Positions 1,883-43,289 of a stretch of DNA of 64,000 nucleotides are shown here, in pieces (position 1 is the stretch's first letter; each line of letters begins with the position of its first letter). Position numbers and translations under genes: made by a program. This DNA comes from a virus: positions 124,001 through 188,000 of the IMG/VR virus record IMGVR_UViG_3300036939_000082. One strand, 5' to 3'. Below the pieces are notes generated by a model. It was not told the origin of the DNA, did no database searches, and saw only the letters and a list, made by a program, of their open reading frames with translations.

Positions 1883-1888
1883 ATATCT

Positions 1889-1937
1889 CTCCAAAACAAC
1901 AGAGGCCGCCCAAATAGCTTGGACGGCCGACGTAGCA
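1889..1937 (-). promoter_or_regulatory. Hairpin leader, copy A (shared with tape-measure gene)
   Basis: On the minus strand GCTACGTCGGCCG opens an 8-bp GC-rich stem (GGCCGTCC / GGGCGGCC, 9-nt loop) followed by TCTGTTGTTTTGG and the ribosome site. Copy B, with the same order and spacing, precedes the tape-measure start at 29325. The stem plus T-rich run resembles an attenuator, but it sits directly before the start codon. Confidence 0.6.
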
Positions 1938-1976: not shown

Positions 1977-2054
1977 TTCAACCCGATCGCCCGCGCAATC
2001 TCAGGATTTCTGTACCAAGCATATCGCGAAGGACGAAAACTTGCAAATTTTTAG

Positions 2055-2474: not shown

Positions 2475-2475
2475 A

Positions 2476-6589: not shown

Positions 6590-6591
6590 AA

Positions 6592-7008
6592 ATGATGGCT
6601 AAGCATAGTGTTTTACTGGTTGAAGATTCGCCTGATGACGCTGAAATAGCAAAGATTGCTTTTGAAAAGACACAGCTCGACATCAATTTAGAAGTAGTTA
6701 AAACCGGGAGATCTGCTATTCTGAGATTGCAAGAAGTAAATCAACCGGATTTGGTTATTCTCGACTGGAATTTACCGCTCGTGTCGGGAAAAGAAGTTTT
6801 GTTTTTTATCAAAAGAACAGCAAGAATTAAGAGAATTCCTGTAGTTGTTCTGACTACATCAAAGAACACCCAAGATATAACTGATGCTTACGACGGTCAC
6901 TGCAATGCCTACACAGTAAAGCCATTAGAGTTTGATGACACGATAGAGCTGTTAAGCTCGATTGCGAATTTTTATTGCAGGTACACATTATCACCCAAAG
7001 AGCTATGA
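6592..7008 (+). CDS. Single-domain response regulator (Rcp1-like)
   Basis: 138 residues, only a receiver domain. Acid pocket VEDSPDD (Asp12), phosphoacceptor Asp58 in VILDWNLP, conserved Thr in VVLTTS, Lys in YTVKPLE. Length and sequence style match the small response regulators paired with cyanobacterial phytochromes. It begins 2 bases after the kinase stop (ATG ATG; either may be used), and its stop overlaps the next start as ATGA, so the three genes form one translationally coupled operon. Confidence 0.9.
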   Translation: MMAKHSVLLVEDSPDDAEIAKIAFEKTQLDINLEVVKTGRSAILRLQEVNQPDLVILDWNLPLVSGKEVLFFIKRTARIKRIPVVVLTTSKNTQDITDAYDGHCNAYTVKPLEFDDTIELLSSIANFYCRYTLSPKEL

Positions 7009-10443: not shown

Positions 10444-13400
10444 TTACTGCTTGGCTTTTTCAACAATATCTCGCAACTGAGTGCGAATAACTCTTTGCGC
10501 CTGCGGTGATTCCAAATGCTTCATAATTTCGCCCAATAACTCTTCCGCTGCAAAACTTGGATTTGCTCCCTGAACTACAATGTCTCCAAAAACAAATTGA
10601 ACGTTAAATTCTGTTGTCTGCGAAGATGCAGCGGGCGGAAGGGGAATTGGGGTTGCGGGGACAGGCAATGCTCGAAGGCTGGAAACCTCTACCCGATCGC
10701 CCTGGTTGATCGATTCCAATAAAGGTAGGTTCGACCGCGTAGCAGCAGCATTGACAACAAACTCCCCAGGCGACGCCAGAATAGGTACGCGATCGCCCGT
10801 AGATGTTCCCATTCCCGATATCAAACCGCCAGTCGCATAACGCTGTACTGGCTGAACCTGCAGCGGGTGGCTCGGCAAAGGCTGACTCCGCAGCGAAGGA
10901 GCGAACAATCCGCCGACGAACGGAATATTAGCTAAAACCCCCATTGAATTAGTTACAACCCACTGAATCAGATTCCAAATTCCTTGGAAAACTCTAGTAA
11001 TAGCGCTTCCTACAACAACAAATGTTTCTTTTAGTACCCACCCGACCGCCACAACTCCAGAAATTATCGCCAAAAAAGGTGCGGCTGCAACTACCGCAGC
11101 AGAAATACCCGCAATCACAGCCCCAATACCGCCCGTGACGGCTGGAACGACAGCCGCAGCAAAAACTCCTCCTATTGTCGCCAGCGCGCTCCCGACTCCC
11201 GATACAGCAGAGCCGATCGCCCCAACAGCGCCTGTTATGCCAGCAAGCACCGCGCCAAAATTTGCTGCCAAAGTTAAAGTAACGACTGTTCCGGCAATCG
11301 CAGCGCCGACAGTTGCTACTGCTCGAACAATTTTGGAGACAGCGTTAAATACAAATCCTAGCGTTTTAATTACACCGATCAGTACGAATGAAATTGTTTT
11401 AATGATTTTAATCAAACTAAAAGTTAAAGTTTTAACTGGAATCAGCAATACATTGATAATTGATGATGCCAAACCTGATATGTTTCCATCCACTCCGCTA
11501 AAGATGCTGGCGATCGTCCCAAAAATTTGAGCGAATGGCTCGACGATGGTATTTCCCAATTCGACGAGCGCGCTCCACACGCTATCAATTTCCTGAAAGA
11601 GCGTTCCAGTTACTTGGGCGATCGAATCCCAAATTCCCCCAAAAACGCCTGCAACGATACTCCCGATAAAGCTGAAGACTTTTCCCAATACCCATCCAAC
11701 TGCCACAATTCCCAGAAGCAAAGGAATAAAAGGAAGGAAGGGGGAGATTGCTGCGGTTGCTGAGGCAAGGATTGCACTCAAACCGCTGAGAATCACTGGA
11801 ACTAAGACTCCGCTAAATATTCCAGCGACACCGGTGGCAATAGTTGAAAACTCAATTAACGCGAGACTCAACCCAGCAACAAACGCTCCAGCACTTACAA
11901 ACAGTCCCCCTATTTGCGTTAAAGAAGAAAATACCGCTAAAGCAGCGCCTATCCTCAACAGCGATTCAACCAATACGCCAAATACAGTAAAAGCAAATTT
12001 GCCCGCTTGGATTAACGATCCAATGATTCCTGCAACTGTTCCCACGATTGCAGAAGCAACACTGGAAATAGACTCAAGAATCCACGAGCTAAAATTGCCC
12101 AGACTATTTTTTGCATTTTCCACAACCTCTTGAATGCCGCCAATGTTGTCTTTGTAAGATCGGTACAGCAAAAATAGGGCAGAGCTAATTCCCAATATCA
12201 AAGGTAAAAACGGCAGCAGCGGTACAATCATTGATTTGTAGGCAAGTTTGGCAGCACCCGCGACAAATCCGTAAGATGCGGCGATCGCCCCGTTAGCGCC
12301 GCCCACAATTCCTGCTTTAGTCAAAGCAGATGCGGCGATCGCGCTGTCTGCAGCTACGGAACTTGCTGCGTTCGTTGCGTAAAAAGCTCGCATCCCCGGC
12401 ATCGCCGTCCGAATATCTAAGAATGAAGTCACCAAGTCATTCATCATAAATATCGGTGTCGCTAGTTGCGGGGCGATATTCGACAATACGGAACCGATCG
12501 ACAGAGAGAGACTTCTAACGCTTTCACCGACCTGCTTCCTAGCAGCGGTATCTTGCTCGACTGCTAACGTTACTCGCCGATGAGCAGATTCTAGATTCTT
12601 CAAACCTTGAGTATAGACTTTGCTATCGATCGCCCCTTGTTTGTAGAGATCGTTCAACCGCACCTGCCTCGCTGTAATTCTGTGAAGGTTGGTTTGGGAC
12701 TCTACCGGATTCCGACTAACGCTCGACATTGCCAACTTCGCATCAAACTTCAACCCGCCAAGCGCTTCGCCAGCTTCGGCAATTTTAGACGGAGATAGCG
12801 CGGTGAGCGATCGATCTAAAAATCTGTAAATTGCATTGCCTTCAATCTTTGCCGACAGCGCCAAGTCCGACAGCCGACTTTGAATAGTCTCTGTAGTGTT
12901 GACCCAGTTTTTGCGAATCCAGTAAGTCGGTCCCGGCGAGGCTTCCGACAAATCGCCCTGCAATTGCTGTCCGGTTTGTTTCGCTTTCCTGCCGATGCCC
13001 GCGATCGCCCCGACAATTTTGCCTCCGGTTTTTTCCCAAATTGCGCCCACTGTTTTTAAAGGCTGTTCGAGGAACTGGGCGATCGCTGCACCTAGTTCTC
13101 CTAACTCCGACATTAGTCGCCCTTTCAATTCTGTGGCGTTGCTACCGAGAACGCCGATACTAGCAATTATGTCGGGAATCCCTTTGAAAACGCTAAAGAT
13201 GTCGAACGGCAGGGAAACATCTAGACCTAACTTGAACAGAGCAACGCCTACATCTTTTAGTCCAACCAATATTTCAGCTACAACGCCTGCCATCTTCAAT
13301 CCAAAAGTACCGATATCTTTTGCAAAACCGAGGAAACTGCCAGCAATCTCGCTCGCGGTCAGCGCAACGCCCGCTAATTGTGCCTTGAAGCTTGCAAAAC

Positions 13401-16400
13401 CTTCTTGTACCCCCGCGAAGGCTTCCTTGGATTTTCGAGAGAATGACGACAGAAGCGCAACAAACCTCAATACAGATTTGTATAAACCTAGAACGGCGGT
13501 CATTACCCGAGCCGGCCAGTCCAGCACAAAACGAAATGCCCATACAAACTTTAGTGCGAAGGCAGACAGCTCAATTCCTATTTGGGTAAAAACCCACAAA
13601 ACCTTGAACAAAGGTGGGAGTACAGTTGTAGAAAAATTAACTATTCCAGCTAGTATTTTGCCGACAACTTGCCCGAAGTCTTTACCCGCAGAAGCTGCGC
13701 GATCGGTGTCGCGACCAGCAGAAGTCAATCCCTGAGAAAACTGCCCCAAGTTTTTTAGAATCCATCCCAAAAATTCACCCAAATGTCTGACAGCAGATGA
13801 AACGCCTGTTAGTTTTGATGTCATTTCATCGGAGGCGATCGCCCCGCTGTTTACCGCTCTAGCAATATCGAACAAAGTTTGACCAAAATCAATAGCTGAC
13901 TTACTCGCAGAAATCACTATACCGATCAAATCTGTCAGGGGCTGCTGAACCTCAGAAAATAAACTGGTTGCAAAATTAGAGATGAATCCATTTAGGGATT
14001 TAAACCCATTTTTTATTACATCTAATAAATTAAATTTCGCAATAATTTGAGTGGCTACCCATGTCGCAGGCGCTATCAACTGTAGCAGCGAGTTTGTTAT
14101 CTTGGTAACGGCTTCCTTCCACGCTTCAGGAATTTTGACTGTTGGGCTGTGATTCAATAAACCGATCAATGTCTGACCCAGCCATTTGGCAAAGTCTGCG
14201 ATCGGAGTCAATATGGTTTGAAATTCTGCTGCAAACTTCTCCCATTTCCTTTTAATCCAGTCTGCTGCTTTCCCAAAGGCGATCGGGACTTCTTGTAGGG
14301 CTTGCTCAAATAGTTGAGGAACTCTAGAGCTGAAATCTTGCAACCCCGTCAAAACAGTTAAGAACAAATCCTTTCTGTTCAAGAATTCCGTGAGGCGCTG
14401 CCATTGAGCCTGGACGGAAGCGATCGCGCCATTTATACTGGGAATAATTTTAGCGATTTGCTCTTTCACTTTTTCAAACAAAGAGGGAATAGATTCGCCA
14501 AAATTTTTCATTTTTGCAGAAATACCTGTAAATAAATCCGCAGAACTCAAGAAGGTAATAAAATTCGGCCATTCCGACTTAATCCAAGATATTGTTTCGC
14601 CAAACTTTGTACCAATCAACGTTAGGAAGTCCAAAGCTCCTGGAATCATTGGAGTCTCAGACAACCAAACAGATAATTTATTCCATTTCTCTTGAATAAA
14701 TGCAACCGTATTGCTAAGCCTTTCCCCCAGCAAAGCAATTTTGACAAACAGATTTTGAATTGCCGGGATCTCGAATTTCAATCCAACTTCGATCGCCCAC
14801 GCAGACAGCCTACCGCTTAAGTCTTTTAACCTATCAAAAAATCCTTGAAATATTTGCCCGGTAGCCAGCGACTTCTGAACTTCCGACCATTTTTCTCTTA
14901 ACAAACCCGAAAACAATGTAAATTCCAATCCGACCTTAAGCAATCTATCAAACAGCCAACTGAATAAATTAGTTCCGCTCATCCAGCCTACAAACTTACT
15001 CCACGCAGCCTCCAAAATATTTACGGTTGAGAGAAAAGCTTGAGAGATATTTTCTGGCTTAAAAGCTTCGCGCAGCCGATCGCCCGCAACTCGAAATAGA
15101 TCGCTCTGTCGCAACCAGTCTCCTAGCTGTTGCCACGATGATTGAACTTTGACGATCGCCCGATCGAAGTATTCCTCAACGTTCAACATCTTCATGATTT
15201 GGCGGAACTTCGACTCGACTGCAGAAATTGCACCGCCAAACCCTTTCTGAACTGCCGCTGCAATATCTGGGGGCAGTGCGACGAGAATAGTGTTGAAAAA
15301 GCCGCGCCAGAAGTCTCCGACATATTTGAGGGGCGCTGTTAGAGCTTCTGTGATTCCCGGCACCAATCTTTTAAGGCGATCGGGAATTGACTCGGAAGAT
15401 CCGTCTATGGAGCCAAATAGTTGGCTGATGCCGGTGATCGCATCCTTGAACGTAAAATTCTTGATAGACTCCTGAACCTGAAAAATTCCATTTTTAATCG
15501 ACTGCACCGCGAGATCGACCTGTTCCGCGAAAAGTTGTTTGATGGCTGGAAAATGGTGTTTAACGCTGTCGATCGCAAACGCCACAGCATCAGTCACTGA
15601 CTTGACTGCGTTAATCAATATGGATGCAACCATTTCTCCTGCTTGCTCTCCCGACTTGAAGGCTAAAAAGAAGTTATTGATAGATTCAGTTGCGCGTTTG
15701 AGGGTAAAGCCTAACGGTCGGAAAACTTGCTCGATCGCCTCACCGATTCCCCGCAACACTTGGAACGAACCTCGGGCGATCACCTTCAACCCATCGTCCG
15801 CGCTGCGCCCAAAATTCTCAAACGCAAATCCCAGCCCTCGAAAGCCTTCTTGAATTAAAGTAAAATCTCCTTTGAGCGCGGGCAGTATACCTAGGGCGAT
15901 CGTTTTGAAAGCACCCGCCGCTTCCACCAAGCCCCACAGCGCTCCAGCCAAAATCTTGCCCGCGCCAATCCCAATCTTAATTAGCCCGGTCAAAATCGTG
16001 CGGATACCCAAGAAGTTTGCAGCGATTACCGCAGCCGTAAAAGCGACCCCCCCCAGCACTAGAAGCAGCGGAGAAATGCCCGACAGGGAAAATAGTCCGA
16101 AGGCGATCGCCGACAAGCTCATGCTGTTGAATCCCGACAGTACCCCTCCAACTCCATACTTGAAGTTACCGAAGAAGTCGCGAGCCGCATCCCCTAGTTC
16201 CACAAAATTGAGAGTTAGCAAGGCTTTTGCCGATCGTCCAACAAAGTCAACCAAATCGTTGCCCAATTGACTCAGACTGCTTGTAACATACTCCATCCCC
16301 GGTGCAAACAGAATACTGGCACTGCCTACTCCGCGATCTGCAAGATACTGATAGCGGTCGCCCACGGCTAACGCGAAAAAACTTGCAGCTCTAATCGCCT

Positions 16401-19400
16401 GACTTTTGAGATCGTTTGTTGGCGGTGACAGCAATATCTCGCTAGCGGAATTTGTTAAGTTACCGCGCAGGATCGATCCGGTTTCCTTGGCGTTTGCTTG
16501 AATATCGCCCATCCACCCGCCGATCGCCCCAACAGTTTTTTCCCAGTAGTGGCGAATCCAGTAAGTCGGACCGGGAGATCCTTCGGAAACAGCCTTTTGT
16601 AATTCGTACCCAGAATCTTCTGCTGGCTGCACCAAGGAATTAATGTTTGCAGTAATAGCTGAAGCGGTATTGACCCATGCCGCATTTGTACTGGCAGCGC
16701 CTAAATCGCCCAATCCGATCGCCCCGGTCACACCGACACCAACCGTGTTGGCAGTTTTCGGGGCTGCACCGCTAAATATTCCCGCACCTGCTTTGGCAGC
16801 CAAGTACGTTTTTTTCTCGATAAAGTCTTGTTTTCTTGAAGAGATAAAATCTTTAGTTTTGTCAATTCCAGATTTAACTGTACCTTGAATAGAGTTTGCA
16901 ATTTTTGGCGCATTTTCTTTTATACCTTGAATCAAAAAACTCAAGAATTTTTGTGCGGAACTTGTTTCTGCAACTTCTAACGGCAAAAGGTTTTCACGAG
17001 ATCGATCGGCGATCGCCTGTTTAACGGGCAATTGCATAGGTGGGTGTAAAGTGTTTATTGCCATTAGAATTTCGCCTAATACACTATTTATTGCTTCCAG
17101 TTGTACAATTTGTTGCGACTTCCCAGGCTGTCCCGGTGCAAGTTTAATTGCATCATTCAAAGAATCTTGTCCAACCAATGCTTTATCTAGCAATGCTCGA
17201 TCGGGAATCTTCGCTCCCACGGATGCAGCCGTAGCACTCAACCTAGCATTAGAGAACATCCCTTCTTGATTTTTGGCAGATGCTGCCAATTGCTCTTCTA
17301 TATATTTTTGACCGGCTTGATTGATTTTGTAGACATCTTCTGTTTGACCCAGCAGTCCGCCAAGACCTTTTTTCTGTACAGTAATCTTCGTTGCCAAACC
17401 TGCGTATTCTGCTTGAGAGGATAATGATTTTGAATTCAATCCTTGGAGTATCGTGTCTGCAATCTTAAGTTCTTCTTTCTGCATCTGAGTTTGAACTTGC
17501 GTTCTAAACGCAGATTCTTTGTCAAATACATTTCTAATTTCTATAAAATCGGGAATGTGTACCTTATCTAACAGTGGAATTCCCTCTAACGGATTCCATC
17601 CTCTTTTTTGTTGATCTAAATCATTGGAAATATCTTTTTGTCTTGATTGTTCGGTTCTTTTTTCCCATCCTTCACCTTTTAAACCAAGCCCTATTTGATA
17701 TTTGCGCTGCGCTGACACAGAACTTTTTCCTAAATCGGGAGCTTGAGCGGTTGCCAATGACCTTGTTTCTTCTTGAGGCTTGTCAAGTAGAGCAAGCAAA
17801 GATTTAGTATAAAAAGCAATGCGATCCAATGTAGAAACTATTGATACAAAAAGTCCTCTATGTAGGTACAATTCAGACTCGATCGCCCGAGAACCTTGGG
17901 TGAAAAAACCTTCCATTCCGACATAAGTGTTTGTCAGTGAATTTTTGGTATTAACAACAGCTTCTTTACCTTGACTAACAACTAAGTTTGCCTGTTTTGC
18001 TTTACCACTAAAGAAATTGCCAACTGGCGAAAATATACCCGTCAATATGCCAGCAACTTCTTTGGCGGGAGTTAGCAGCCAATTCATTGCCCCTGATATT
18101 CTTTCCACCGCCCCTTCCCATGCAGTTGGGATTTTCTCTGTGGGGTTGTGATTTAAAGCGTCAATAAGACCCAATGCTATTTCTAAAGCAGTATCGACCA
18201 ACGGCATATCGAGAAACCAGTGTACAAACCCCGTCCAAGCTTTTTGAATTGCTTGAACAGAACCGGAGAATAGATTACTAATTGCGGTTGTCAGCTTAAC
18301 CGTTTTTGTCCTAATATCCGCAAAGTCAGTAGTGAAAGCAAGCGTTAGAACAGATAGAGCTGTTGTTATGCCTCCGATTCCCAGTATCAACGTGCCAAGT
18401 TCCCCTAACATTCCTAACCCAAAAATCGGCTTAAGTAAATTGCCAAATTTAGAAATGCTTTTGCCCGCTCCGCTTTGTTGCAGTGTTCCCAACATTGCTG
18501 GAGCGGTTACTGTTGGAGATCCTCTTTGAACAAAGCCGCCCATACTCCGGGCAGAGTGACTTAGCTGCGGTGGCGCTTCCCTTGAGAATCTTCTTTGAAG
18601 CATCGCTTCTATTCTTGTCGCTAGATTCTTATTTCTTTCTTTGTTCGTGGCAAACCTCCAAAGTGTTTGCGCCTGTGCGGTCTGCTGCTGCCTGATTTGA
18701 GCGTGGAGAAGTTGAGCTTGAGTGTCTAATTTCTTACCAACGGAATCAAGAGGCGACAGTACCGAAGTAAGTGCAGCGACGACTTTGCCGAAGCCTATCT
18801 GTAAATTGTCTTGCCACGACAATTTCTGTTTTTCACCCGTAGCTCCTAATGCTATTGAATTGATAAATTCTGTTTTGCGTCGCTGCTTGGCATCATCGGC
18901 TTGGAGCGATTCGGACATTTCTTCTCCTACCCCCTTCGCTGGAGCGACCATCCCTTGTATCGAGCCTGTTATGCTTGCAACAGCTCCCTCCCATGCTGTC
19001 GGTATCTTCTCCGTAGGGTTGTGGTTGAGAGCGTTTATTAAGCCCTGCGCTACGTTCAGTGCTGGCTGTACGATCGCCATCAATTTCCCGCCAAACGCAT
19101 CAATAAATCTTTGCCACGCAGCGGTAACAAAGGCGATCGGCGCTGACAGGGCTTGAGAAAGCATATCGCCAGCAGATCGCGCCAAACTTCCAATACCTAA
19201 AAAGTTGTTTTTAAAGGCTAAATACAAGCCCCCCGCAGCTAGCCCGATCGCCGCAACCCCTGCAATCAAAGGAGCTAGCGGTAGCGCTGCTGCTCCCACC
19301 GCTCCGGCGATCGCTCCGCCAATGCCAGTTAGTCCGGCGATAGTTGCTCCCGACACCGAGACTATCGCTCCAAAACTAGCTCCCAACGCAGCCAGTACCG

Positions 19401-22400
19401 GAGCGGCCAGTCCGCCAACCGCCCCGATCAAAGTAAACAGTTCTGTTACCTTGTAAAGACTTTGGGCAGTTTCTTCGTCGATAAAACCCATGTTTTGCAG
19501 CGAAAAGAAAGCTGTCTGCGCCGCAAACCCGGCGGCTGTCACAGCACCGCCCACGGCCATTCCAGCCTTGCCAACTCCTCCCACCGCGCCGACTAATTTA
19601 TGAAAAAATCCAACTGATTTGGTTGTAGCCTGTTCTGCCGCTTGAGGGATGCGGGCGATCGACTGCTGGGTAACTTGCGTCGCGCGCTGCATATCTCGGG
19701 CAATCTCTGCTCCCGTTCCCGCCGCCGCCTGAGCCATTTGATTCATGTTTGCAGTGGTAGAGTGTTCGGTATTTTTCCAGGCTGCGCTGGTCACGTCGGA
19801 TGCGCGGTGGTTGAGGCTGCTCACAATCTTGACTCCCGCCCACGCAGCGCGCTTCACCATCGTCCACCAATTATTCCCGGTAATTCTGTTGGTGGCTTCT
19901 TGCCACGCAGTTTCAGTGCGGGTAGCAGCCCCTTGAAAGTAAGTAGAAATTCCTCTGGCTGCGGACGAAGCGCCCTTCAGTATTGATGCGGATATCTTCT
20001 CGGTCAAGGGGAGTATATTGTTACCATATTCAGCCATCCCGCTGTCAATGCTAACGTCGGCCGAATCTATCAGTCCGCGACGCTCTAAACTCCGGTAGTG
20101 CCGCCGCCCTCCCCGGCTGGCTTCTCTAATTGTTGTTTCGCTTTGGGGAATTGCAGCTTGGCGCGATCGCGCGTTCAGCGCATCAGCTCCTTGTCCAACT
20201 TTTTGAGAAGCAGTCTTCAGCAATTCAGCAAGTCCAAACAAAGCTGCTTTTGCCTTAGAAGCAGGAGAGTTAAACTGTTTGGTGTATTCAATCCGATCCC
20301 CCAAAGTTGCTGCGCGGCGTTTAGCAGCAAGACCCAGCCTAGAGTCCCCTTGAGACTGAGCTAGTCTTTCTGCTGCCGCTTTGTGCTTTTGTAAATTTGC
20401 AATATCTTTGTTGCCAAAAACATTAGAAAAAAAGTTTTTGATACCAGAAAACAAATTGCCGATCGCCCCTAAGATTCCGCCTTGCTGCGATCTCGCTTGG
20501 TTCCCCGCTTGACCCAACACTCCGGCAACCGCCTTAAACAGTTCCCCTGCTTTGTCAACTATTTTAACCGTCCAAGATTTAGCTCGTTCTGCATCAAATC
20601 CGCTGGCGCGATCGACAAAAAACTTTGACATCGAATCGCCGCTGCGGGCTAAAAATCGGGAGAAATTATTAAGGAAATTGCTGAACGGGTTTGTCCCGAT
20701 CAACCCTTCGACTTCGCGGGCGATTCGGTTGGTTCCGACTGACATAGCGATTCGGGCGCGATCGATGATGCTCGAAATCCCAATCAATACTGGTTTGCCC
20801 AGTACGGGAGAGATATCTGCAACTATTTTTTTAACAAGTCCACCTGCTCCCGTTTTCGCTGCGAGTGCTGTTACGCCCCCGGTAAAATTCTTTATCAATT
20901 CAGGGAATGCTTTAGCAAAAAATACCTGATAAGGTGCAACAGACTTCGCTGTGTAATTAGGATTTTCAATGATTTCGCGAGCCCTAGCTTCATTTACATC
21001 TAAAGCTTTTCCTAAAGCTTTAGTAATATCTTCAATCTTGTTGCTCATCCCTAATTTGTTGAGTCTGTCTTTGATTGAAATATTATTGCCATTGCTATCT
21101 TTTTGATCTTTTAGGATGGACTGCAAGATAGTGTCTTGAGTTTTTCGATCCTTAATATCAGTTTTCGTAAGCTCTGCAAACATTTGACCCATAAATTGAT
21201 AATGGGTTTTCGGGGCTTTCTCACGCCCTTCTGTCATCATGTGTTCCAAGCTGTTTCGCTGAGCAGTTCTGAAATCTTTATTTAACTTCTCGATTCTTTG
21301 AACAAATTTAGATCCTTTGATACTAACTTCTGCTGCTTTATACAGATCGCCAGCTAGTTTTATTGACGAATCTTTGGCAGATAAAGCTGACTTGTAAATA
21401 CCGGAGTAAAAATTGCGGAGCGGGCGCACAATATTTTCCGCCATTTCTACACTCATAAAAGGTATTTTGATCAATTTTGATTCTAGAGAGTCTATTTTAT
21501 CAATTGTTGATCGATTAAATCGCTCGAAACCCGCATCTAGGTTTTCAAGAAAAACCTGTACGTTAACTTTTAGCTGTTCTAAAGGATTTTTTAGTTTAAC
21601 TTTATCAATATTCTTGAGTTCGCGTGCCGAAGACAAACCAATCAAGCTAGCAATTTGTTCTTGCTGTTCCTGACTGGCTTTTAAAACAAATTTACCAGTC
21701 AACAAGTATTGATCGAATACAGCAGCAAGTGAGTCATCTCTGCGGAGACTGTTTCGCAAATCGTTTAATTCATCTTTGCCTCCTATACCAGCATTGGTTA
21801 ATTGTTTTTGCAGCGTATCAAAATCTGTTTCTTTGAGCTGTTTACCCCGATCGCCCGTACCGTGCGTTAGAAACCTTCGCAACTTTTGAATGTCTTCTTT
21901 GTTTAAATCGGGCGCGGATTTTAGTCTATCTAAGAATGTCTTTAGCCCATCCACCCCCTTAAACTCAGATCGCTTCTCGCCAAAACTAGCTTCTAGCATT
22001 CCAGTTAGTTTGGTAATTTCTTGACCTGTAGCTTCTCGCTGAAACTTTCCTGTTTCTATAAATTGATTAAAAAATTGATGCAACTGTTTGTGTTCTGGTT
22101 CCCTCAATTTTCTCAAAAGTCCATCTAGGTTGCCGTGTATTGGGTTGTTTTTAACTAAAGCGTCAAGTCCTCTTTCTCGCGCCCGTTTCAACAATAAGGC
22201 AGCACTAGCTTCAGATTGAATCAATTTTTCAGTTCTAGCTTGAACTATTCGCGCTTGAATTGCGATTGTTTTGTCAAATCGCATAGATTCTAATATCTTG
22301 GGAATACCAGTCCATCCAAAGAAGGTGCGAGCTAGTGTATTGCGAGTAGAAGTAACTTGCCCTTCTAGCAAGTTAGAAGACTGCTGCATTGCAGTACCAA

Positions 22401-25400
22401 GATTTCTCACGCCTTCTACGGCTACATTGCCAAATCCAGTAACTACTTGTCTCGACCTCCCAGAAGCTTCTTGAAGTTCTTTCGCAGCCTGCTTATTTGC
22501 CGATTCAAACTCTTTAAAAGAGGGTATAGTTACTGCAATAAAATCAGCTTGTCGCTGATTAATCTTGTTGATAACATCCTTGACGACCTTTTCGTATTCT
22601 CCACGGTGAAGAGTCTCCCCTATTGTTTTTGCTGTTTTTATTTGAGCTGCATAAGCCTTGATTTCGTCTTCGCCAAACATATTTGTACCCGGTTTCCCCG
22701 GTCTGTCTGACGATCTAATGTTTGACAAAACCGCCATCATGCTATCTCGAAAAGCGTTTAGTTTGCTCGCGTAAGTGCTTTCTGCAGACTTTAGCGCACC
22801 TCTAATCTTTTCAGACGAAGCGGCAGTGTCAATCGATTTATCTCCTTTATCTTTGAATCTAGACAGTTGAATGTCGAAAGCTCTCTCGCTATCTGGTTTA
22901 TCTTTCGATACTTGCGGTAATTTTGTCTTGCTTACGTAAAGGTATTCGGCTTTAATATCTTCAACGTGCAAATTAGCCATCGCCTTCTGGAAATTATTCA
23001 AAAGGTCAATCGCCACATTCTTGCCACCGGCTAACTTCACTAGCTCTTCGTTGCTCGGGGCATTGCCAAATCGAGAAAATTCAGCATCCAACCCGGATCT
23101 TTTCGCTGCCTCCCGGCGTATGTTTTCAAACTGCAAGCCCCGCCCCGCCTTGACATTTTCGCCGCCCCGACCGCTCATTTTTAGCAGTTGGCGACCGATA
23201 TCGGTAACTTGGTACTGTTCTATACCGAATCGGTTGCGACGTTTTTCTACAGCCGCTCCGCTCACGCCCTCGGTAATGCCGTTTTTGTCTTTGAGGTAAT
23301 ATCGGCGTTCTGCATCTGCCAATCCTTTCCCAAAATCAGTTCCCCGCTTGACTTCGGAAATCAAAGCGCGTTCCGATAATGCCTGTTCTTGTCGCTGGGC
23401 TTTAGCTAACTCTTTCTGATAGCGCAGCGCAGCCTTTGATTTGCCAACCCTTTGATCTCCAAGCATTGTCGCTTGCTGCTGAGTTTGGAAGTCTTGAGAA
23501 TAAGCCAGCGGGTTGGCAATTCCGGCAACTGTCGATCTGCGGCGCACTTTATTTGCAACTTCGCTCAAGCCAACCTGTACGTTAGCGCTGCTAGCAACTT
23601 GCTTGACCCGATCGCCCACGCCTGCTATTGCCTCCGAAACTTGCAAGATGCGTCCGACAAACAAGAGCACGTTGCTGGAAATCATCTGGAACGCACCGCC
23701 GATATTCCGCGTCAGCAGCAGCGCGATCGCGAAGACTCCCGAACCGATTACCGGAAGAAATTTAACAAATTGTTCTGCGAGGTTGCCGATGAACCCAGTT
23801 AAATCCGGGGATACATACAGCCCTAAGAATCCCGCTATTCCCTGCATCGCCACATTCAATGCGTCGATCGGGTGCTGGAGGGCGGTGATGATTTTATCTA
23901 AAGTCTGAAATCCGGTAGCGTACTCGTAAGACAAGAATCCGCCGAGTTCGATCAGTCCCACGATCGCGAATTGGATCGGACTCAGCAATCCGTAAATTCT
24001 ACCCAACACGCTAGCAACCGCCAAAATCTCCGGCCAAAAATCCGCAGCAAACCGAACTAATTTATCGAGTTGCAACTGGCGGACGTAAACCATCACCCCG
24101 GCGGTTGCTGCGACTAAATTTTTGGCAAAGAGTTCCGTCAATCTGGTGATTTCACCGATCGGATCTCGGATCAGCCTGACAATTTCAGCAGCGCTTGCCC
24201 CGACGATCGCCCCTACTGTTTTACCCAAATAGGCGATCGCGCCTACTGCCCGCATCGCTGTCTGCTGAAACCCGAAGTTGATGACTCCAAACAAATCGCT
24301 AAAAATTTGCTTGACTAGCGGTACAAAGTTACCGCGCAACAATGCTGCGATCGCGTCACCGTACTGCTGCGTCTTCAGTCGGATCAGTTTAAATGTTGCC
24401 AATATTGCAATCAGCACACCATCTGCCACCGCTACCGCCGCGAGAAGTACGCCCGCTAGCGGGTTTATGACGGAGAACTTAAAGACGTTGGCAAGGATAG
24501 ACGAAACTCCGACAATCTCGTGAACCGTTACCCCAATACCTGTCCCTAATTTGTCAAAGACATCCATAACGGTTGCAGCCATCCCCGGTATCGCCTTCAA
24601 GAATCGGAACAGCACTTCACCGAGATCGACTACCACAAACCGCATGACTTCCAACACCTTGGCGACGGGCATCAAACTGACACCCAAAAGTCTGGTATTG
24701 GCGATCGCGTCTAACATCTCTTGATTGACTGGTTTCAGGATGTTGTACCAAAACAGCATCGTCAGACCCAATCTACTGACAATCTGGACGATCGGGGAAA
24801 CCATCATCAATCCTTGGACGAGCTTGATAAATACTTTCATCGGACCCGATGCGCTTTCAAGGATTTCAACTAGCGATACCAAACGCTTCTCTCTCTCAGC
24901 CAGTCTCCTCGCTGCGGGAGTAGCTAAAACTTGGAATATTTCAGCTTGTTTCCTAGAAATAAAGTCCAGCGGAACTGCACTCCCCGATACCAACCTCGCA
25001 ACTTCGTTCAAGCTCCTATTCAATCCCAGTGCAATATCGACAGGGTTGATGTAGTTAGCAAGATTAAATATTTGGGACAATCCTCCAAAACCACCCTTCT
25101 TAATAATTCCCGCCAATCCTTTGGTTCGGATGTAAAAAGCCAAGAACTTAAAAGCTGCTGCCGGGTTGAGAGCTTTCATCAGGATATTAGAAACGGGACT
25201 TAACCCTTCTCTAAATGCGTAAACTGCTCCCGACATTAAATCGGTAAAAATCTTTCTGTAGCTTGAGAAAAGAGCAACTAATTGTTTTGTCGGAAAAAAC
25301 CTCAGCAGCAGATTTAGGTAGCGGGGCGCAGATGCCACAATTAACTGAAAGAATCCGCCCAGAGCTTTAGTTGCAACCAAAAACGCAGCCGACAAGTGTT

Positions 25401-28400
25401 TGCCGATATAGGGAATTTCGAGGATTAAGCCAGCAATGCCAATTACTGCGCGATCGATCGCCAGCAACATTGTTCTTCCAACAGCAGCAGCGACAGATTG
25501 AGCGTTAAGCGAGATCGCCCGCAGGATATCCGTAATTGGAGTCAGCTTGCTGATAATTTCCTGCAATACCGCCAATACTGGCAAAGTAACGATTGCATTG
25601 AAAGTAAAAATAACGAGAGAGGAAATAGCGGAAATAGTCCTGAGCGCAGCGGGTAAAACGGTTCCAGTCAAAAAGCCCATAATCCCCTGAACTGAAGGAG
25701 ACTTAGCTAGCGACACCAGTGCCTTTTCCATCGGCAAAATAGCAGTCACTAGCGGTATCAGGGGCGGCAGCGCCGAGAAAAGCGGGAAAGAAGTAAATGG
25801 ATTGAAACTTAAAATTGGTTCGATTCCGGCGTAAATTTCCTTCCCAATTTCCTTGGACAAATCTCCGACGCGGTGGAGGTAAGCAATCAGTCCTACTAGC
25901 GGGCCTCGAATAAAATCTTTAATTGCTAAGTAAGTTTTGTCGATATCAACATCGATCGCCATTCCCCCCGGGAACATTGCGGGCATGGACTTCGTAAAAG
26001 TTGTCAATCCCTCGCTCAGCCCCTCATTTAACTTCTGCTTCATCCCGACTGACAGGGAATTGAAAATTTTGTCGGAAGTTTTTTCTAGAAATTCCGGCAT
26101 TGCATCGATCGCGCCCATGAATCCCCGCTCAATTCCCCGGATCAATCCGGTGGAAGTGGCGATCGCAATTAGCCCCGGCATCGCATATAAGAAAGCCCTG
26201 GGAATTCCTTCTCCAATAATGAACGCTAACTCTGGAACGATTAGCGCTGCACCTTCTTCTAACTGAGCTAGCAGAGTTAGCGGCAGCGACGACAAAGTTA
26301 GCAGTGTAAAACTGAGAAAGTCAAAATTTTCTTTAACTCCATCAATAATACCCCGCTCGAAGTCTCTGATTTTTGTAACCGCTTCACCAATAACTGAAAG
26401 CTTTCTAACGGAGTTAGCGACTAAATTAATCGCCCCTCCGAGCAGTTGCTGCTGAGCCTCCATTCTTGAGGATTCTGTTATATCTCCAATACCTAGAAAG
26501 GCACGGTTGACCAAACCTGCAGCGTTCCGAATCCTAATAAATAGCTTTTCTAAAAAGGCGATCGTGTAATCCCACTTTTCTCGAATCATATAGGTCGGTC
26601 CCGGCGATGCCTCAGCCAATCCCCCTTGCAACAATTTGCCAATCTGGGCTACGAAATCAGCAAAAGGTGTCAGCAAGTTTTTGATGTAGTTCAGCGTGTA
26701 ATTCCACGAATTCTCGATCGCCTTGCCAGCCAACTGAAAGGGCTGCGCGACGAACTTGAAAATATCGCCTCCGATCGCCCGCCCGGATTTCCGCCAAGCT
26801 TCAAAAGCCGCGGTCGCATATTCAATCGCACTGCTGACTGCTGCAAACGGAGCGGTTAATACCGAACCCGCAACAGATGTGGGAATATCTAGCGCAGCGA
26901 GCAGCGCTTCTGTAAATCCTTGAATTATTCCAACCGCGAAACCGGCAACGGAACTGACGGCGCTGAAAATAGTACCCAGTAAATTGATTTCTGGGTTGAT
27001 TTGTTCGAGGATGGCGTTCAATGCGAGGAAACTGGCGATCGCGATACCGAGCGGAGACAGCGCAAACGACACCGACATCGAAGCCAGCGACCTCGAAACC
27101 ACTGCAATATTTCGCGCAATCCCGCTCAATCCAAAATTGACATCCCTAGATGTGGAAGCAATCGTGTCAGAGAAAGCTTCCGCAGCAAACGAGGCAGTCT
27201 TGAACGGATTGGAAGCCGTACCTTCAAAAGCTCCCATCGCCGCCGGGAAAAATCCGGTCAGCGGAATCACGCTAGCTTGCAGTGCAATTCCAGCAGCAGT
27301 GGCAGTAGCAGCGGCTTGCGAAAATCCAAACAGCACTACACCGACTGTTCCGACAGCAACCGACACCGCCGCAAACCCTGCCGCAAGCACCCCAACTCCG
27401 GCAATCAATCCTCGAACAGGAGACGGCAGGTTGGCGACTGCCAGCAACAGTTTGGTTGAAGCGTCGGCAATCGCGCGCACGATCGGGGCGATCGGTTCGA
27501 TCAAATTAACCTGAACTGCTTCAAAAGCAGAACTGAGCGATCGGAACGAACCCGCCAGGTTATTTTCCATCACCTGCGCCATCGTTTTAGCTGCGCCGGA
27601 TTTCCCTTTAAATTCAATCCCCAGTTCGCCCATCGCTGAGGTTAGTTTGCTGACTGCCGCATTTGCGTCGGGAGCAGTCGTCAAGATCGCATCAAATAAA
27701 TTCTCGCCTTCGGGTATTTGAAAATATCCCGACAACTGACTTAACTGGGCACTCGAAAGATTTCCTAGATATTCATTTGATTTAACTAGGGCGATCGTAG
27801 CAGCATCTAATTGTTGCAGCGCATTTTGATAGTTGCCTGCTTCCCGCAGGAGCGAAGTAAAAACATCTTTATCTGTGGCTAATTTGTCTATACCCTGAGA
27901 TTTAAACAACTTCTCATAATCTTCAACAGCAAAGGAACTGCCCCTACCCGCCAAGCTCAGGCGAGTAAATTCTTGCATTTGGCCGATCGCAGCCGATGCG
28001 CCCGAGATGCCAGTCGTACCAAAAATATCTTTTAATGCAGTAATTTGCTTTGATTGAGCAATTTGTCCTAATTTTTCTACGTCGTCGCCTGCTTGAATTA
28101 TGGAATCCAAGGAAGCCGGATCTAATTGCAGGTTCGTACCGATATCTTGCATGACATCGACAATATTTCGCATTTTGCCGCTCGTATCGGTCAGCGAAAT
28201 ACCGTATTCGTTTAGCGCCATCCTGCCCCTTAGCGTAGGTGCAGCTAATTTTAGGAATGCTCCCCTCGCAGCCGTTCCAGCTTTATCTGCTTGAATCCCG
28301 GCGTTTGACATTACCCCAATCAACGCCGAGGTTTCTTCAATTCCCGCGCCAAACAGAGCGGCGTTTGGCGCAGCGTAACTCATCGCTACACCCAACTGCT

Positions 28401-29325
28401 GAATGTTGGTATTTGCGCTAGCAGCCGAAAGCGCCATAACATCGGTAATGTGTCCTAAATCGCTAACTCCCATCCGCATCCCGCTGAGCACGTTGGAGGC
28501 AATATCGGCCGATTCAGCCAATCCCAGTTGTCCGGCCGAAGCTAAATCCAAAGTTGCCGGAACCCCCGCAAAAATCTGTTGAGCGTTAAAGCCCGCCGCC
28601 GCCAAATATTTTTCGGCATCCGCAGCCTCTCCTGCGGTAAATCGAGTTGTCGCCCCCAATAACTTGGCTTTTTCCCGCAACCGATCTAAATCCTTGCCAG
28701 TAGCTCGCGAGATAGCTGCCACCGCACTCATCTTGTCGTCAAAATCAGCAAAAACTTGAATGGCTTCTTTTCCGGCTTGCTTCAGAGGATTGAGCGCTAT
28801 ATTCCCAACTTGATTGAGCGCTCCAAACTCGCCCTTCCTTTGGGAGAAAAACGCAGCTTTGCGTTCGGCATCGTGCAGGGCAAGCTTGTCCTTGATGACG
28901 CGCTGCTGCCGTTTGAGGACTTCGGTAAATTCCCGCTCCGCTGCCGTTTCGCCCTGAACTTGCTTTCTTAATTCTTTCAGGTTTTTAACGTAAGCGTTGA
29001 CAGCGGTTGTGGCTTTCTTGAACTGGCGATCGTCTAGCACGTCTCCAAAATCAATATTTGCCGCAGTAGCTTTCAATGCCCTAAACTCAGCTTTTAGAGG
29101 CTGCAAGCTCTTTGCCATGCTTCCGGAAGCAGTGTCGAGCGAGCGGGCTGCAGATTTAAATTGACCTGCCAGCCCGCTGCTGTCTACGGATTTGGAAGCG
29201 TCGGCAACCGCTTTTTCCATGCTGCGCAAGTGTTTGACGACAGATTTCATGGAAGAAAAACTGCCGTCTGCAACTAAGAAATTAAACTGACCAACCAGTC
29301 CGTAACGATCTAGACTCTCTTCCAA
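10444..29325 (-). CDS. Giant phage tail tape-measure protein
   Basis: About 6293 residues without a stop. The start chosen is TTG at 29325: its upstream sequence aligns with the hairpin leader and ATG of the S74 fibre gene, and the frame upstream is the hairpin itself. Residues about 30-125 coiled coil; about 130-500 TP901-1-type tape-measure core (DFDDKMSAVAAISRAT, GATTRFTAGEAADAEKYLAA, NIQQLGVAMSYAAP). The rest alternates hydrophobic Ala/Gly/Ile/Val helices with linkers. Two motif families recur: SPGPTYWIR (near 908, 4250, 5461) and NH(N/S)PTxKIPxAW (near 3433, 3723, 5058). Residues about 1950-3090 are hydrophilic without membrane segments. The C-terminus has the usual ATGGLISG…GEFVVNAAAT near 6165. 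It sets tail length and probably enters the envelope during DNA delivery. Confidence 0.95.
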   Translation of the reverse strand: MEESLDRYGLVGQFNFLVADGSFSSMKSVVKHLRSMEKAVADASKSVDSSGLAGQFKSAARSLDTASGSMAKSLQPLKAEFRALKATAANIDFGDVLDDRQFKKATTAVNAYVKNLKELRKQVQGETAAEREFTEVLKRQQRVIKDKLALHDAERKAAFFSQRKGEFGALNQVGNIALNPLKQAGKEAIQVFADFDDKMSAVAAISRATGKDLDRLREKAKLLGATTRFTAGEAADAEKYLAAAGFNAQQIFAGVPATLDLASAGQLGLAESADIASNVLSGMRMGVSDLGHITDVMALSAASANTNIQQLGVAMSYAAPNAALFGAGIEETSALIGVMSNAGIQADKAGTAARGAFLKLAAPTLRGRMALNEYGISLTDTSGKMRNIVDVMQDIGTNLQLDPASLDSIIQAGDDVEKLGQIAQSKQITALKDIFGTTGISGASAAIGQMQEFTRLSLAGRGSSFAVEDYEKLFKSQGIDKLATDKDVFTSLLREAGNYQNALQQLDAATIALVKSNEYLGNLSSAQLSQLSGYFQIPEGENLFDAILTTAPDANAAVSKLTSAMGELGIEFKGKSGAAKTMAQVMENNLAGSFRSLSSAFEAVQVNLIEPIAPIVRAIADASTKLLLAVANLPSPVRGLIAGVGVLAAGFAAVSVAVGTVGVVLFGFSQAAATATAAGIALQASVIPLTGFFPAAMGAFEGTASNPFKTASFAAEAFSDTIASTSRDVNFGLSGIARNIAVVSRSLASMSVSFALSPLGIAIASFLALNAILEQINPEINLLGTIFSAVSSVAGFAVGIIQGFTEALLAALDIPTSVAGSVLTAPFAAVSSAIEYATAAFEAWRKSGRAIGGDIFKFVAQPFQLAGKAIENSWNYTLNYIKNLLTPFADFVAQIGKLLQGGLAEASPGPTYMIREKWDYTIAFLEKLFIRIRNAAGLVNRAFLGIGDITESSRMEAQQQLLGGAINLVANSVRKLSVIGEAVTKIRDFERGIIDGVKENFDFLSFTLLTLSSLPLTLLAQLEEGAALIVPELAFIIGEGIPRAFLYAMPGLIAIATSTGLIRGIERGFMGAIDAMPEFLEKTSDKIFNSLSVGMKQKLNEGLSEGLTTFTKSMPAMFPGGMAIDVDIDKTYLAIKDFIRGPLVGLIAYLHRVGDLSKEIGKEIYAGIEPILSFNPFTSFPLFSALPPLIPLVTAILPMEKALVSLAKSPSVQGIMGFLTGTVLPAALRTISAISSLVIFTFNAIVTLPVLAVLQEIISKLTPITDILRAISLNAQSVAAAVGRTMLLAIDRAVIGIAGLILEIPYIGKHLSAAFLVATKALGGFFQLIVASAPRYLNLLLRFFPTKQLVALFSSYRKIFTDLMSGAVYAFREGLSPVSNILMKALNPAAAFKFLAFYIRTKGLAGIIKKGGFGGLSQIFNLANYINPVDIALGLNRSLNEVARLVSGSAVPLDFISRKQAEIFQVLATPAARRLAEREKRLVSLVEILESASGPMKVFIKLVQGLMMVSPIVQIVSRLGLTMLFWYNILKPVNQEMLDAIANTRLLGVSLMPVAKVLEVMRFVVVDLGEVLFRFLKAIPGMAATVMDVFDKLGTGIGVTVHEIVGVSSILANVFKFSVINPLAGVLLAAVAVADGVLIAILATFKLIRLKTQQYGDAIAALLRGNFVPLVKQIFSDLFGVINFGFQQTAMRAVGAIAYLGKTVGAIVGASAAEIVRLIRDPIGEITRLTELFAKNLVAATAGVMVYVRQLQLDKLVRFAADFWPEILAVASVLGRIYGLLSPIQFAIVGLIELGGFLSYEYATGFQTLDKIITALQHPIDALNVAMQGIAGFLGLYVSPDLTGFIGNLAEQFVKFLPVIGSGVFAIALLLTRNIGGAFQMISSNVLLFVGRILQVSEAIAGVGDRVKQVASSANVQVGLSEVANKVRRRSTVAGIANPLAYSQDFQTQQQATMLGDQRVGKSKAALRYQKELAKAQRQEQALSERALISEVKRGTDFGKGLADAERRYYLKDKNGITEGVSGAAVEKRRNRFGIEQYQVTDIGRQLLKMSGRGGENVKAGRGLQFENIRREAAKRSGLDAEFSRFGNAPSNEELVKLAGGKNVAIDLLNNFQKAMANLHVEDIKAEYLYVSKTKLPQVSKDKPDSERAFDIQLSRFKDKGDKSIDTAASSEKIRGALKSAESTYASKLNAFRDSMMAVLSNIRSSDRPGKPGTNMFGEDEIKAYAAQIKTAKTIGETLHRGEYEKVVKDVINKINQRQADFIAVTIPSFKEFESANKQAAKELQEASGRSRQVVTGFGNVAVEGVRNLGTAMQQSSNLLEGQVTSTRNTLARTFFGWTGIPKILESMRFDKTIAIQARIVQARTEKLIQSEASAALLLKRARERGLDALVKNNPIHGNLDGLLRKLREPEHKQLHQFFNQFIETGKFQREATGQEITKLTGMLEASFGEKRSEFKGVDGLKTFLDRLKSAPDLNKEDIQKLRRFLTHGTGDRGKQLKETDFDTLQKQLTNAGIGGKDELNDLRNSLRRDDSLAAVFDQYLLTGKFVLKASQEQQEQIASLIGLSSARELKNIDKVKLKNPLEQLKVNVQVFLENLDAGFERFNRSTIDKIDSLESKLIKIPFMSVEMAENIVRPLRNFYSGIYKSALSAKDSSIKLAGDLYKAAEVSIKGSKFVQRIEKLNKDFRTAQRNSLEHMMTEGREKAPKTHYQFMGQMFAELTKTDIKDRKTQDTILQSILKDQKDSNGNNISIKDRLNKLGMSNKIEDITKALGKALDVNEARAREIIENPNYTAKSVAPYQVFFAKAFPELIKNFTGGVTALAAKTGAGGLVKKIVADISPVLGKPVLIGISSIIDRARIAMSVGTNRIAREVEGLIGTNPFSNFLNNFSRFLARSGDSMSKFFVDRASGFDAERAKSWTVKIVDKAGELFKAVAGVLGQAGNQARSQQGGILGAIGNLFSGIKNFFSNVFGNKDIANLQKHKAAAERLAQSQGDSRLGLAAKRRAATLGDRIEYTKQFNSPASKAKAALFGLAELLKTASQKVGQGADALNARSRQAAIPQSETTIREASRGGRRHYRSLERRGLIDSADVSIDSGMAEYGNNILPLTEKISASILKGASSAARGISTYFQGAATRTETAWQEATNRITGNNWWTMVKRAAWAGVKIVSSLNHRASDVTSAAWKNTEHSTTANMNQMAQAAAGTGAEIARDMQRATQVTQQSIARIPQAAEQATTKSVGFFHKLVGAVGGVGKAGMAVGGAVTAAGFAAQTAFFSLQNMGFIDEETAQSLYKVTELFTLIGAVGGLAAPVLAALGASFGAIVSVSGATIAGLTGIGGAIAGAVGAAALPLAPLIAGVAAIGLAAGGLYLAFKNNFLGIGSLARSAGDMLSQALSAPIAFVTAAWQRFIDAFGGKLMAIVQPALNVAQGLINALNHNPTEKIPTAWEGAVASITGSIQGMVAPAKGVGEEMSESLQADDAKQRRKTEFINSIALGATGEKQKLSWQDNLQIGFGKVVAALTSVLSPLDSVGKKLDTQAQLLHAQIRQQQTAQAQTLWRFATNKERNKNLATRIEAMLQRRFSREAPPQLSHSARSMGGFVQRGSPTVTAPAMLGTLQQSGAGKSISKFGNLLKPIFGLGMLGELGTLILGIGGITTALSVLTLAFTTDFADIRTKTVKLTTAISNLFSGSVQAIQKAWTGFVHWFLDMPLVDTALEIALGLIDALNHNPTEKIPTAWEGAVERISGAMNWLLTPAKEVAGILTGIFSPVGNFFSGKAKQANLVVSQGKEAVVNTKNSLTNTYVGMEGFFTQGSRAIESELYLHRGLFVSIVSTLDRIAFYTKSLLALLDKPQEETRSLATAQAPDLGKSSVSAQRKYQIGLGLKGEGWEKRTEQSRQKDISNDLDQQKRGWNPLEGIPLLDKVHIPDFIEIRNVFDKESAFRTQVQTQMQKEELKIADTILQGLNSKSLSSQAEYAGLATKITVQKKGLGGLLGQTEDVYKINQAGQKYIEEQLAASAKNQEGMFSNARLSATAASVGAKIPDRALLDKALVGQDSLNDAIKLAPGQPGKSQQIVQLEAINSVLGEILMAINTLHPPMQLPVKQAIADRSRENLLPLEVAETSSAQKFLSFLIQGIKENAPKIANSIQGTVKSGIDKTKDFISSRKQDFIEKKTYLAAKAGAGIFSGAAPKTANTVGVGVTGAIGLGDLGAASTNAAWVNTASAITANINSLVQPAEDSGYELQKAVSEGSPGPTYWIRHYWEKTVGAIGGWMGDIQANAKETGSILRGNLTNSASEILLSPPTNDLKSQAIRAASFFALAVGDRYQYLADRGVGSASILFAPGMEYVTSSLSQLGNDLVDFVGRSAKALLTLNFVELGDAARDFFGNFKYGVGGVLSGFNSMSLSAIAFGLFSLSGISPLLLVLGGVAFTAAVIAANFLGIRTILTGLIKIGIGAGKILAGALWGLVEAAGAFKTIALGILPALKGDFTLIQEGFRGLGFAFENFGRSADDGLKVIARGSFQVLRGIGEAIEQVFRPLGFTLKRATESINNFFLAFKSGEQAGEMVASILINAVKSVTDAVAFAIDSVKHHFPAIKQLFAEQVDLAVQSIKNGIFQVQESIKNFTFKDAITGISQLFGSIDGSSESIPDRLKRLVPGITEALTAPLKYVGDFWRGFFNTILVALPPDIAAAVQKGFGGAISAVESKFRQIMKMLNVEEYFDRAIVKVQSSWQQLGDWLRQSDLFRVAGDRLREAFKPENISQAFLSTVNILEAAWSKFVGWMSGTNLFSWLFDRLLKVGLEFTLFSGLLREKWSEVQKSLATGQIFQGFFDRLKDLSGRLSAWAIEVGLKFEIPAIQNLFVKIALLGERLSNTVAFIQEKWNKLSVWLSETPMIPGALDFLTLIGTKFGETISWIKSEWPNFITFLSSADLFTGISAKMKNFGESIPSLFEKVKEQIAKIIPSINGAIASVQAQWQRLTEFLNRKDLFLTVLTGLQDFSSRVPQLFEQALQEVPIAFGKAADWIKRKWEKFAAEFQTILTPIADFAKWLGQTLIGLLNHSPTVKIPEAWKEAVTKITNSLLQLIAPATWVATQIIAKFNLLDVIKNGFKSLNGFISNFATSLFSEVQQPLTDLIGIVISASKSAIDFGQTLFDIARAVNSGAIASDEMTSKLTGVSSAVRHLGEFLGWILKNLGQFSQGLTSAGRDTDRAASAGKDFGQVVGKILAGIVNFSTTVLPPLFKVLWVFTQIGIELSAFALKFVWAFRFVLDWPARVMTAVLGLYKSVLRFVALLSSFSRKSKEAFAGVQEGFASFKAQLAGVALTASEIAGSFLGFAKDIGTFGLKMAGVVAEILVGLKDVGVALFKLGLDVSLPFDIFSVFKGIPDIIASIGVLGSNATELKGRLMSELGELGAAIAQFLEQPLKTVGAIWEKTGGKIVGAIAGIGRKAKQTGQQLQGDLSEASPGPTYWIRKNWVNTTETIQSRLSDLALSAKIEGNAIYRFLDRSLTALSPSKIAEAGEALGGLKFDAKLAMSSVSRNPVESQTNLHRITARQVRLNDLYKQGAIDSKVYTQGLKNLESAHRRVTLAVEQDTAARKQVGESVRSLSLSIGSVLSNIAPQLATPIFMMNDLVTSFLDIRTAMPGMRAFYATNAASSVAADSAIAASALTKAGIVGGANGAIAASYGFVAGAAKLAYKSMIVPLLPFLPLILGISSALFLLYRSYKDNIGGIQEVVENAKNSLGNFSSWILESISSVASAIVGTVAGIIGSLIQAGKFAFTVFGVLVESLLRIGAALAVFSSLTQIGGLFVSAGAFVAGLSLALIEFSTIATGVAGIFSGVLVPVILSGLSAILASATAAISPFLPFIPLLLGIVAVGWVLGKVFSFIGSIVAGVFGGIWDSIAQVTGTLFQEIDSVWSALVELGNTIVEPFAQIFGTIASIFSGVDGNISGLASSIINVLLIPVKTLTFSLIKIIKTISFVLIGVIKTLGFVFNAVSKIVRAVATVGAAIAGTVVTLTLAANFGAVLAGITGAVGAIGSAVSGVGSALATIGGVFAAAVVPAVTGGIGAVIAGISAAVVAAAPFLAIISGVVAVGWVLKETFVVVGSAITRVFQGIWNLIQWVVTNSMGVLANIPFVGGLFAPSLRSQPLPSHPLQVQPVQRYATGGLISGMGTSTGDRVPILASPGEFVVNAAATRSNLPLLESINQGDRVEVSSLRALPVPATPIPLPPAASSQTTEFNVQFVFGDIVVQGANPSFAAEELLGEIMKHLESPQAQRVIRTQLRDIVEKAKQ

Positions 29326-29328
29326 GAT

Positions 29329-29378
29329 TGCCCCCAAACAACAAAAGCCGCCCCATTGGGTGGGGCGGCCGACGTAGC
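29329..29378 (-). promoter_or_regulatory. Hairpin leader, copy B, before the tape-measure gene
   Basis: On the minus strand GCTACGTC, then stem GCCGCCCC/GGGGCGGC (7-nt loop), then TTTTGTTGTTTGGGGG and the TTG start. It matches copy A at 1889-1937 in order, spacing and flanks. Confidence 0.6.
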
Positions 29379-29413
29379 GTGATATATTAATTTCATTGAA
29401 TTGTACCAAAAAT

Positions 29414-43137: not shown

Positions 43138-43289
43138 GTATATTGAAAAAGCCACAAGGAAACCACATGATTAATAAAAACGGGATACAAGCCTCGTCCT
43201 TTCCTTTTAGGAAGACTTTAGTTAAGAATTGTGGATAACCGAAAATATACTTTGTCAGAATGCTACGGTTAGGTAGGAGGGTAGAACAA

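Follow-up and report, generated by a model that had tools for sequence, protein, structure and literature searches.

Tape measure proteins (TMPs) are the textbook molecular ruler, and the question raised here is how long such a ruler can become and what kind of tail it would set. The locus lies in a stretch of 64,000 nucleotides (hereafter the window) that spans positions 124,001 to 188,000 of the IMG/VR virus record IMGVR_UViG_3300036939_000082 (G000, 188,942 bases). Window positions 10444-29409 (-) form one uninterrupted open frame of 6321 amino acids (aa) when counted from the first TTG. The window sequence MEESLDRYGLVGQFNF aligns with the annotated METDFWGLSAQFEF of the Nostoc C052 homologue and with MEETDRYGLFAQYDF of the viral contig G005, backing the TTG at 29325 as the gene start, which gives 6294 codons with the stop and a protein of 6293 aa. 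The longest run in the other frames over the same DNA is 269 codons and the window holds no N; the length of the frame is far beyond chance. Near the N-terminus the TP901-type core PF10145 (PhageMin_Tail) scored 145.5 bits against a curated cut-off of 33.2 (E 1.6e-43), and PHROG 1533 (tape measure) matched with E 7e-77; PHROG tape measure families cover the N-terminal part together with stretches of the C-terminal half. The C-terminal motif GEFVVNAAAT (SPGEFVVNAAAT) is present, and ~57 surrounding residues match the TMPs of mycobacteriophage TM4 and Pseudanabaena phage Pan1. These matches support a TP901-type tape measure gene of exceptional length, and they bear out the original prediction of a single unbroken frame of ~18.9 kb and ~6293 codons with a TP901-type core at one end and a typical GEFVVNAAAT motif at the other. 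That prediction also placed the gene among the longest tape measures conceivable; the exceptional length stands, but the gene is surpassed by those of relatives, with 8060 and 8170 aa. We regard it as likely that this gene supplies the ruler for a contractile tail in a cyanobacterial phage.

Misassembly can produce giant genes in metagenomes, and on that general ground alone the frame might be a set of concatenated repeats or the relic of a decaying gene; no result points to either. The sister record IMGVR_UViG_3300035684_000001 (G001, 188,553 bases) is colinear with G000 over the whole length at ~82% DNA identity but has different end points (permuted), which suggests that each record is a nearly complete genome of ~190 kb. 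The two TMPs share 87.8% aa identity over 6329 columns with all indels in-frame, and the ratio of nonsynonymous to synonymous substitution rates (dN/dS) is 0.117, staying below 0.19 in every 300-codon window; the gene is under purifying selection along its whole length. A TMP homologue of 8170 aa (WP_179070682.1) is encoded at 20766-45278 of the circular plasmid pC052_F of Nostoc sp. C052, which was closed from nanopore reads and polished with Illumina (PMC6645180). G005 has an intact TMP of 8060 aa and, along the same contig, homologues of the sheath, tube and endolysin, and two further viral contigs carry truncated TMPs, of at least 7200 aa in G002 (cut on either side) and at least 2894 aa in G004; contig G006 (107 kb) has sheath and terminase genes and no TMP on the contig. 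Self-comparison of the window TMP revealed no large near-identical internal repeats (best 28% identity). Assembly-made concatenation, which was named with the original prediction as its possible undoing, is thus answered by the permuted sister assembly and the nanopore-closed plasmid. Since independent assemblies that break at different points all keep the gene whole, and since it is free of large near-identical repeats and under purifying selection throughout, an artefact or relic is already refuted by the present results unless all records carry the same error, and we assign it a close to negligible probability. Farther away in the TP901-core family, frames in viral contigs measure just 0.5-1.9 thousand aa (some truncated at contig edges), and a scan of genome contigs returned distant TMPs only; one small clade is thus set apart by its giant TMPs. 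Within this clade the length differences lie mainly after residue ~3000, as exemplified by 185 residues here versus 826 in C052 between two conserved blocks.

With regard to the type of tail, the record contains a tail cassette at G000:83490-91724, with genes for a sheath, a gp19-like tube and a Tail_P2_I protein. The sheath gene (G000:88300-91302 (-), 1000 aa) matched phrog_23 with E 1.3e-14, and its alignment profile matched PDB entry 9ezm, 'Phage tail sheath protein FI' (E 4e-11), a match that is strong over the C-terminal part and weak over the N-terminal part. Repeated beta modules resembling tail-fibre domains are inserted in this protein at residues ~250-640. The Tail_P2_I (gpI-like baseplate) match reached 22.0 bits against a cut-off of 20.6. 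A sub-threshold match to a gpV-like OB/hub domain lies in a 1470-aa baseplate protein with long internal repeats (G000:106064-110476 (+)), and the same genome also encodes a portal, a candidate capsid protein, a terminase and a tail spike. The sheath/tube/baseplate cassette is kept in C052, G005 and G006, in G005 on the contig that bears the TMP and endolysin genes. Because sheath, gp19-like tube (a weak match), Tail_P2_I and gpV-like OB proteins are encoded and the cassette is conserved, the tail is probably contractile, not siphoviral. The sheath, gpI-like, gpV-like and tube genes had not been remarked upon in the original prediction, and a probably contractile tail would make the length more unusual.

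Several results weigh against this assignment. The sheath protein has no Pfam match, only two of four relatives singly reached the PHROG sheath threshold, and the AlphaFold model of the sheath is of low confidence (predicted local distance difference test, pLDDT, 41). The tube match (G000:87709-88278) is weak (15.2 bits versus a Pfam cut-off of 28.2) and the tube profile gave no meaningful match in the PDB, while the gpV-like domain, at 20.9 bits, lies just under its Pfam cut-off of 23.8. The tail could be long and non-contractile, and the sheath-like protein could decorate it or have some other structural role; siphoviruses are where TP901-type TMPs mostly occur, and the resemblance to sheaths is distant, in a protein whose insert domains look like those of tail-fibre proteins. 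However, the profile matches solved sheath proteins, the neighbours of the sheath gene include the gp19-like tube and the P2 gpI-like baseplate protein, with the gpV-like OB protein elsewhere, and the cassette is kept in three relatives, which makes a non-contractile tail improbable in our judgement.

The length of this probably contractile tail can be predicted from published ratios of TMP to tail. A value of 1.56 Å per residue follows from T4 (TMP of 590 aa, tail of 92.5 nm) and from phage G (2893 aa, 450 nm) (PMC8570332), and one of 1.62 Å from Gordonia phages with a 9,984-bp TMP gene and a 540 nm tail (PMC4982279). At 1.56-1.62 Å per residue the predicted tail would be 0.98-1.02 µm for the window TMP and 1.27-1.32 µm for that of C052. 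The earlier estimate of a tail near 0.94 µm is supported to the extent that these ratios predict a ruler of about 0.9-1.0 µm. The TMP could, however, be processed. The longest tail that we found in the literature is that of P74-26, a siphovirus, at nearly 1 µm (PMC10034513), the longest contractile tails there are those of phage G (450 nm; PMC8570332) and S-CREM2 (418 nm; PMC10665884), and the largest TMP there has 5002 aa (PMC10770324). We found no earlier report of Nostoc tape measures or longer contractile tails in a literature that scarcely covered subscription journals. The present TMP family tops this 5002-aa protein by 25-63%, and its giant TMPs are apparently paired with a contractile sheath; known contractile tails stop near 450 nm, and the predicted tail is roughly twice that.

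Not all of the protein need act as a ruler. From N to C, the TMP consists of the TP901 core, a hydrophobic part up to residue ~1960, a charged hydrophilic stretch of ~1200 residues, a mixed C-terminal half, a very hydrophobic region and the C-terminal motif (Table 1). A 60-residue module (SPGPTYxIRxxW or NHNPTEKIPxAW) recurs in the C-terminal half, with 10 matches here and 13 in C052 and G002, as counted with a profile built from the module itself. Large segments, chiefly residues ~1990-3185, might instead be cargo injected into the host, as in P23-45, where the TMP comes with an RNA polymerase (PMC10770324). The segment is hydrophilic, is free of transmembrane (TM)-like stretches and includes the fastest-evolving 300 codons (dN 0.23). 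Moreover, the C052 TMP carries a J-domain (PF00226, above cut-off, HPD motif intact) near residue 7290, a domain that the window TMP lacks; cargo insertion therefore does occur within this TMP family. On the other hand, no enzyme domain was recognised in the window TMP with Pfam or PHROG, the profile of the hydrophilic segment found no match in the PDB either, and residues 1301-3300 had no match among 50,697 phage records. A DxDGD-like motif (D.D[GA]D, RNA polymerase-type) is absent from the window TMP and from those of the relatives, and HExxH occurs nowhere in the window TMP. In an AlphaFold model of low confidence (mean pLDDT 38), residues 1990-3185 are nearly all helix, which would speak against cargo; this low confidence, and the possibility that the segment does not act as a ruler, count against ruling by the entire protein. 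Even without the segment a ruler of ~5100 aa would be left, and the predicted tail would still be about 0.8 µm. The alternative offered in the original prediction, extra cargo between ruler segments, is thus met by no recognised domain in the window TMP and by one unexplained stretch of ~1200 residues; we consider it unlikely, though worth keeping in mind.

As to the hosts, 49 HIP1 palindromes were counted in the window where 0.9 are expected, and the relatives are similar. Since a related element is in addition a Nostoc plasmid, these data indicate cyanobacterial hosts.

The leader of the gene is organised alike in the window, G001, C052 and G005 (4/4 leaders): a promoter-like TGnTACAAT element, a GC-rich, terminator-like hairpin, a T-run and, a short distance on, the TMP start codon. 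The sites lie at 29346-29408 (-) in the window, upstream of 20043 in L020 and upstream of 320 in L075. The hairpin sequences vary between lineages. When compared with shuffled sequences, the hairpins of C052 and G005 beat all shuffles (z -2.8 and -5.5), and those of the window and G001 were less distinctive (z -1.6 and -0.7). Such a hairpin lies downstream of 4 of the 59 extended -10 sites in G000, compared to 0 in three shuffles, and Rfam gave no match in the window. A putative attenuator that controls the giant TMP gene is a reasonable interpretation of this arrangement.

We propose that the mostly helical TMP of 6293 aa would be stretched, in a few copies, inside the growing tube, and that tube and sheath subunits would stack around them from the baseplate until the end of the TMP is covered, which would fix the tail at roughly 0.9-1.0 µm. 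At infection the hydrophobic C-terminal part would exit first and help to open the inner membrane. In the relatives the same ruler would have grown to 8060-8170 aa, chiefly through added sequence in the C-terminal half where the SPGPT/NHNPT-W module recurs. For the lineage as a whole we lean, if only slightly, towards a still broader view: that these cyanobacterial phages and phage-plasmids build contractile tails of micrometre size, which at about 0.98 µm here and 1.26-1.32 µm in relatives would be longer than any other viral tail or contractile injection machine known, and that their length is set by rulers of 6.3-8.2 thousand residues, which grow by module addition and stand under the control of a promoter-hairpin leader. 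This raises the questions of whether contraction is possible in a micrometre-long sheath, and how so giant a protein gets made and chaperoned, one relative having a built-in J-domain. Speculatively, a long tail may help the phage to get through the thick envelope and the mucilage of Nostoc. Ruler proportionality can be tested on the natural variants (6.3, 8.1 and 8.2 thousand residues), and a cultured strain with a sequenced genome hosts one member.

Table 1. Features of the tape measure gene, its leader and nearby genes (window positions; residues are those of the TMP frame)
Feature	Position	Strand	Basis or remark
Tape measure protein gene	10444..29325	-	TTG start, 6293 aa; homologue-backed start; dN/dS
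TP901-type core domain PF10145	28018..28677 (G000:C1:152018-152677)	-	E 1.6e-43
C-terminal SPGEFVVNAAAT motif region, common to TMPs of other phages	10699..10869	-	Sequence matches
Hydrophilic helix-rich segment, ~1200 residues (about 1990-3185)	19855..23442	-	No TM-like stretches, no family match; conserved at ~27% in relatives
Strongly hydrophobic C-terminal part, residues 5751-6250	10660..12159	-	Hydropathy scan: 9 TM-like segments
Repeated module SPGPTYxIRxxW, residues 916-978	26476..26664	-	Module profile
Repeated module, residues 3184-3243	19681..19860	-	Module profile
Repeated module NHNPTEKIPxAW, residues 3446-3505	18895..19074	-	Module profile
Repeated module NHNPTEKIPxAW, residues 3737-3796	18022..18201	-	Module profile
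Repeated module SPGPTYxIRxxW, residues 4259-4321	16447..16635	-	Module profile
Repeated module NHSPTxKIPxAW, residues 5070-5128	14026..14202	-	Module profile
Repeated module SPGPTYxIRxxW, residues 5472-5534	12808..12996	-	Module profile
GC-rich hairpin then T-run, stopping 20 nt short of the TMP start codon	29346..29370	-	Unrelated-sequence hairpins at same place in C052, G005
Extended -10 promoter-like element TGGTACAAT, upstream of hairpin	29400..29408	-	Same TGnTACAAT element in G001, C052, G005
Tail spike / fibre protein	692..1894	-	phrog_4636, E 3.6e-90
Endolysin: chitinase-like domain and M23-like peptidase	2476..4002	-	Homologue also near TMP in G005

Other genes of the genome were also observed. 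A GAF-domain histidine kinase and response regulator (window 4664-7916 (+)) stand between tail-related genes of the opposite strand, with a further regulator-like frame at 6975-7916. The window further encodes a DarB-like antirestriction/methyltransferase-helicase protein of 1766 aa (31814-37114 (+)) and a 931-aa protein with a right-handed beta-helix and a TIG domain (38456-41251 (+)), possibly a host-binding or depolymerase protein. Three mutually clearly different PHROG 506 'transposase' (TnpB-like) genes lie at window 43260-44501 (+) and 53667-55241 (-) and at G000:101826-103001 (-). Finally, at G000:38282 (+) and 174234 (-) a TTGACA/TGCTACAAT promoter precedes a long GAAGCCCCGCTA hairpin that carries a T-run; these two copies are possibly small RNA genes.

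Among known elements, the Nostoc plasmid pC052_F is closest. Its TMP is related end to end with that of the window (45% identity over the first 1070 residues and 34% over the next 3000) and shares the hydrophobic C-terminal region; its sheath (49%), tube, portal and terminase are related as well. It differs in its TMP of 8170 aa with a J-domain, and in having ParA/ParB, whereas no ParA- or ParB-type match and no integrase was found in G000 or G001, records that may miss a few kb. The C052 protein is annotated merely as 'phage tail tape measure protein', and the genome paper makes no mention of phage (PMC6645180). The Thermus phages P23-45 and P74-26 likewise have a giant TMP (5002 aa) and tails of >800 nm to nearly 1 µm (PMC9022992, PMC10034513, PMC10770324); unlike the phage predicted here they are siphoviruses with non-contractile tails, and their shorter TMP carries an N-terminal RNA polymerase, the motif of which is lacking from the window TMP. 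Bacillus phage G resembles the predicted phage in combining a long TMP (gp183; 2893 aa, 450 nm, 1.56 Å per residue) with a contractile tail. However, gp183 is less than half as long and has its own C-terminal glucosaminidase and M23 domains, which the window TMP is missing; here the lysin is a separate gene (2476-4002). The cyanomyovirus S-CREM2 would share with it the contractile tail of a cyanophage, and at 418 nm its authors described it as the longest among isolated myoviruses (PMC10665884), yet it is T4-like and its tail is less than half the length predicted for the window phage.
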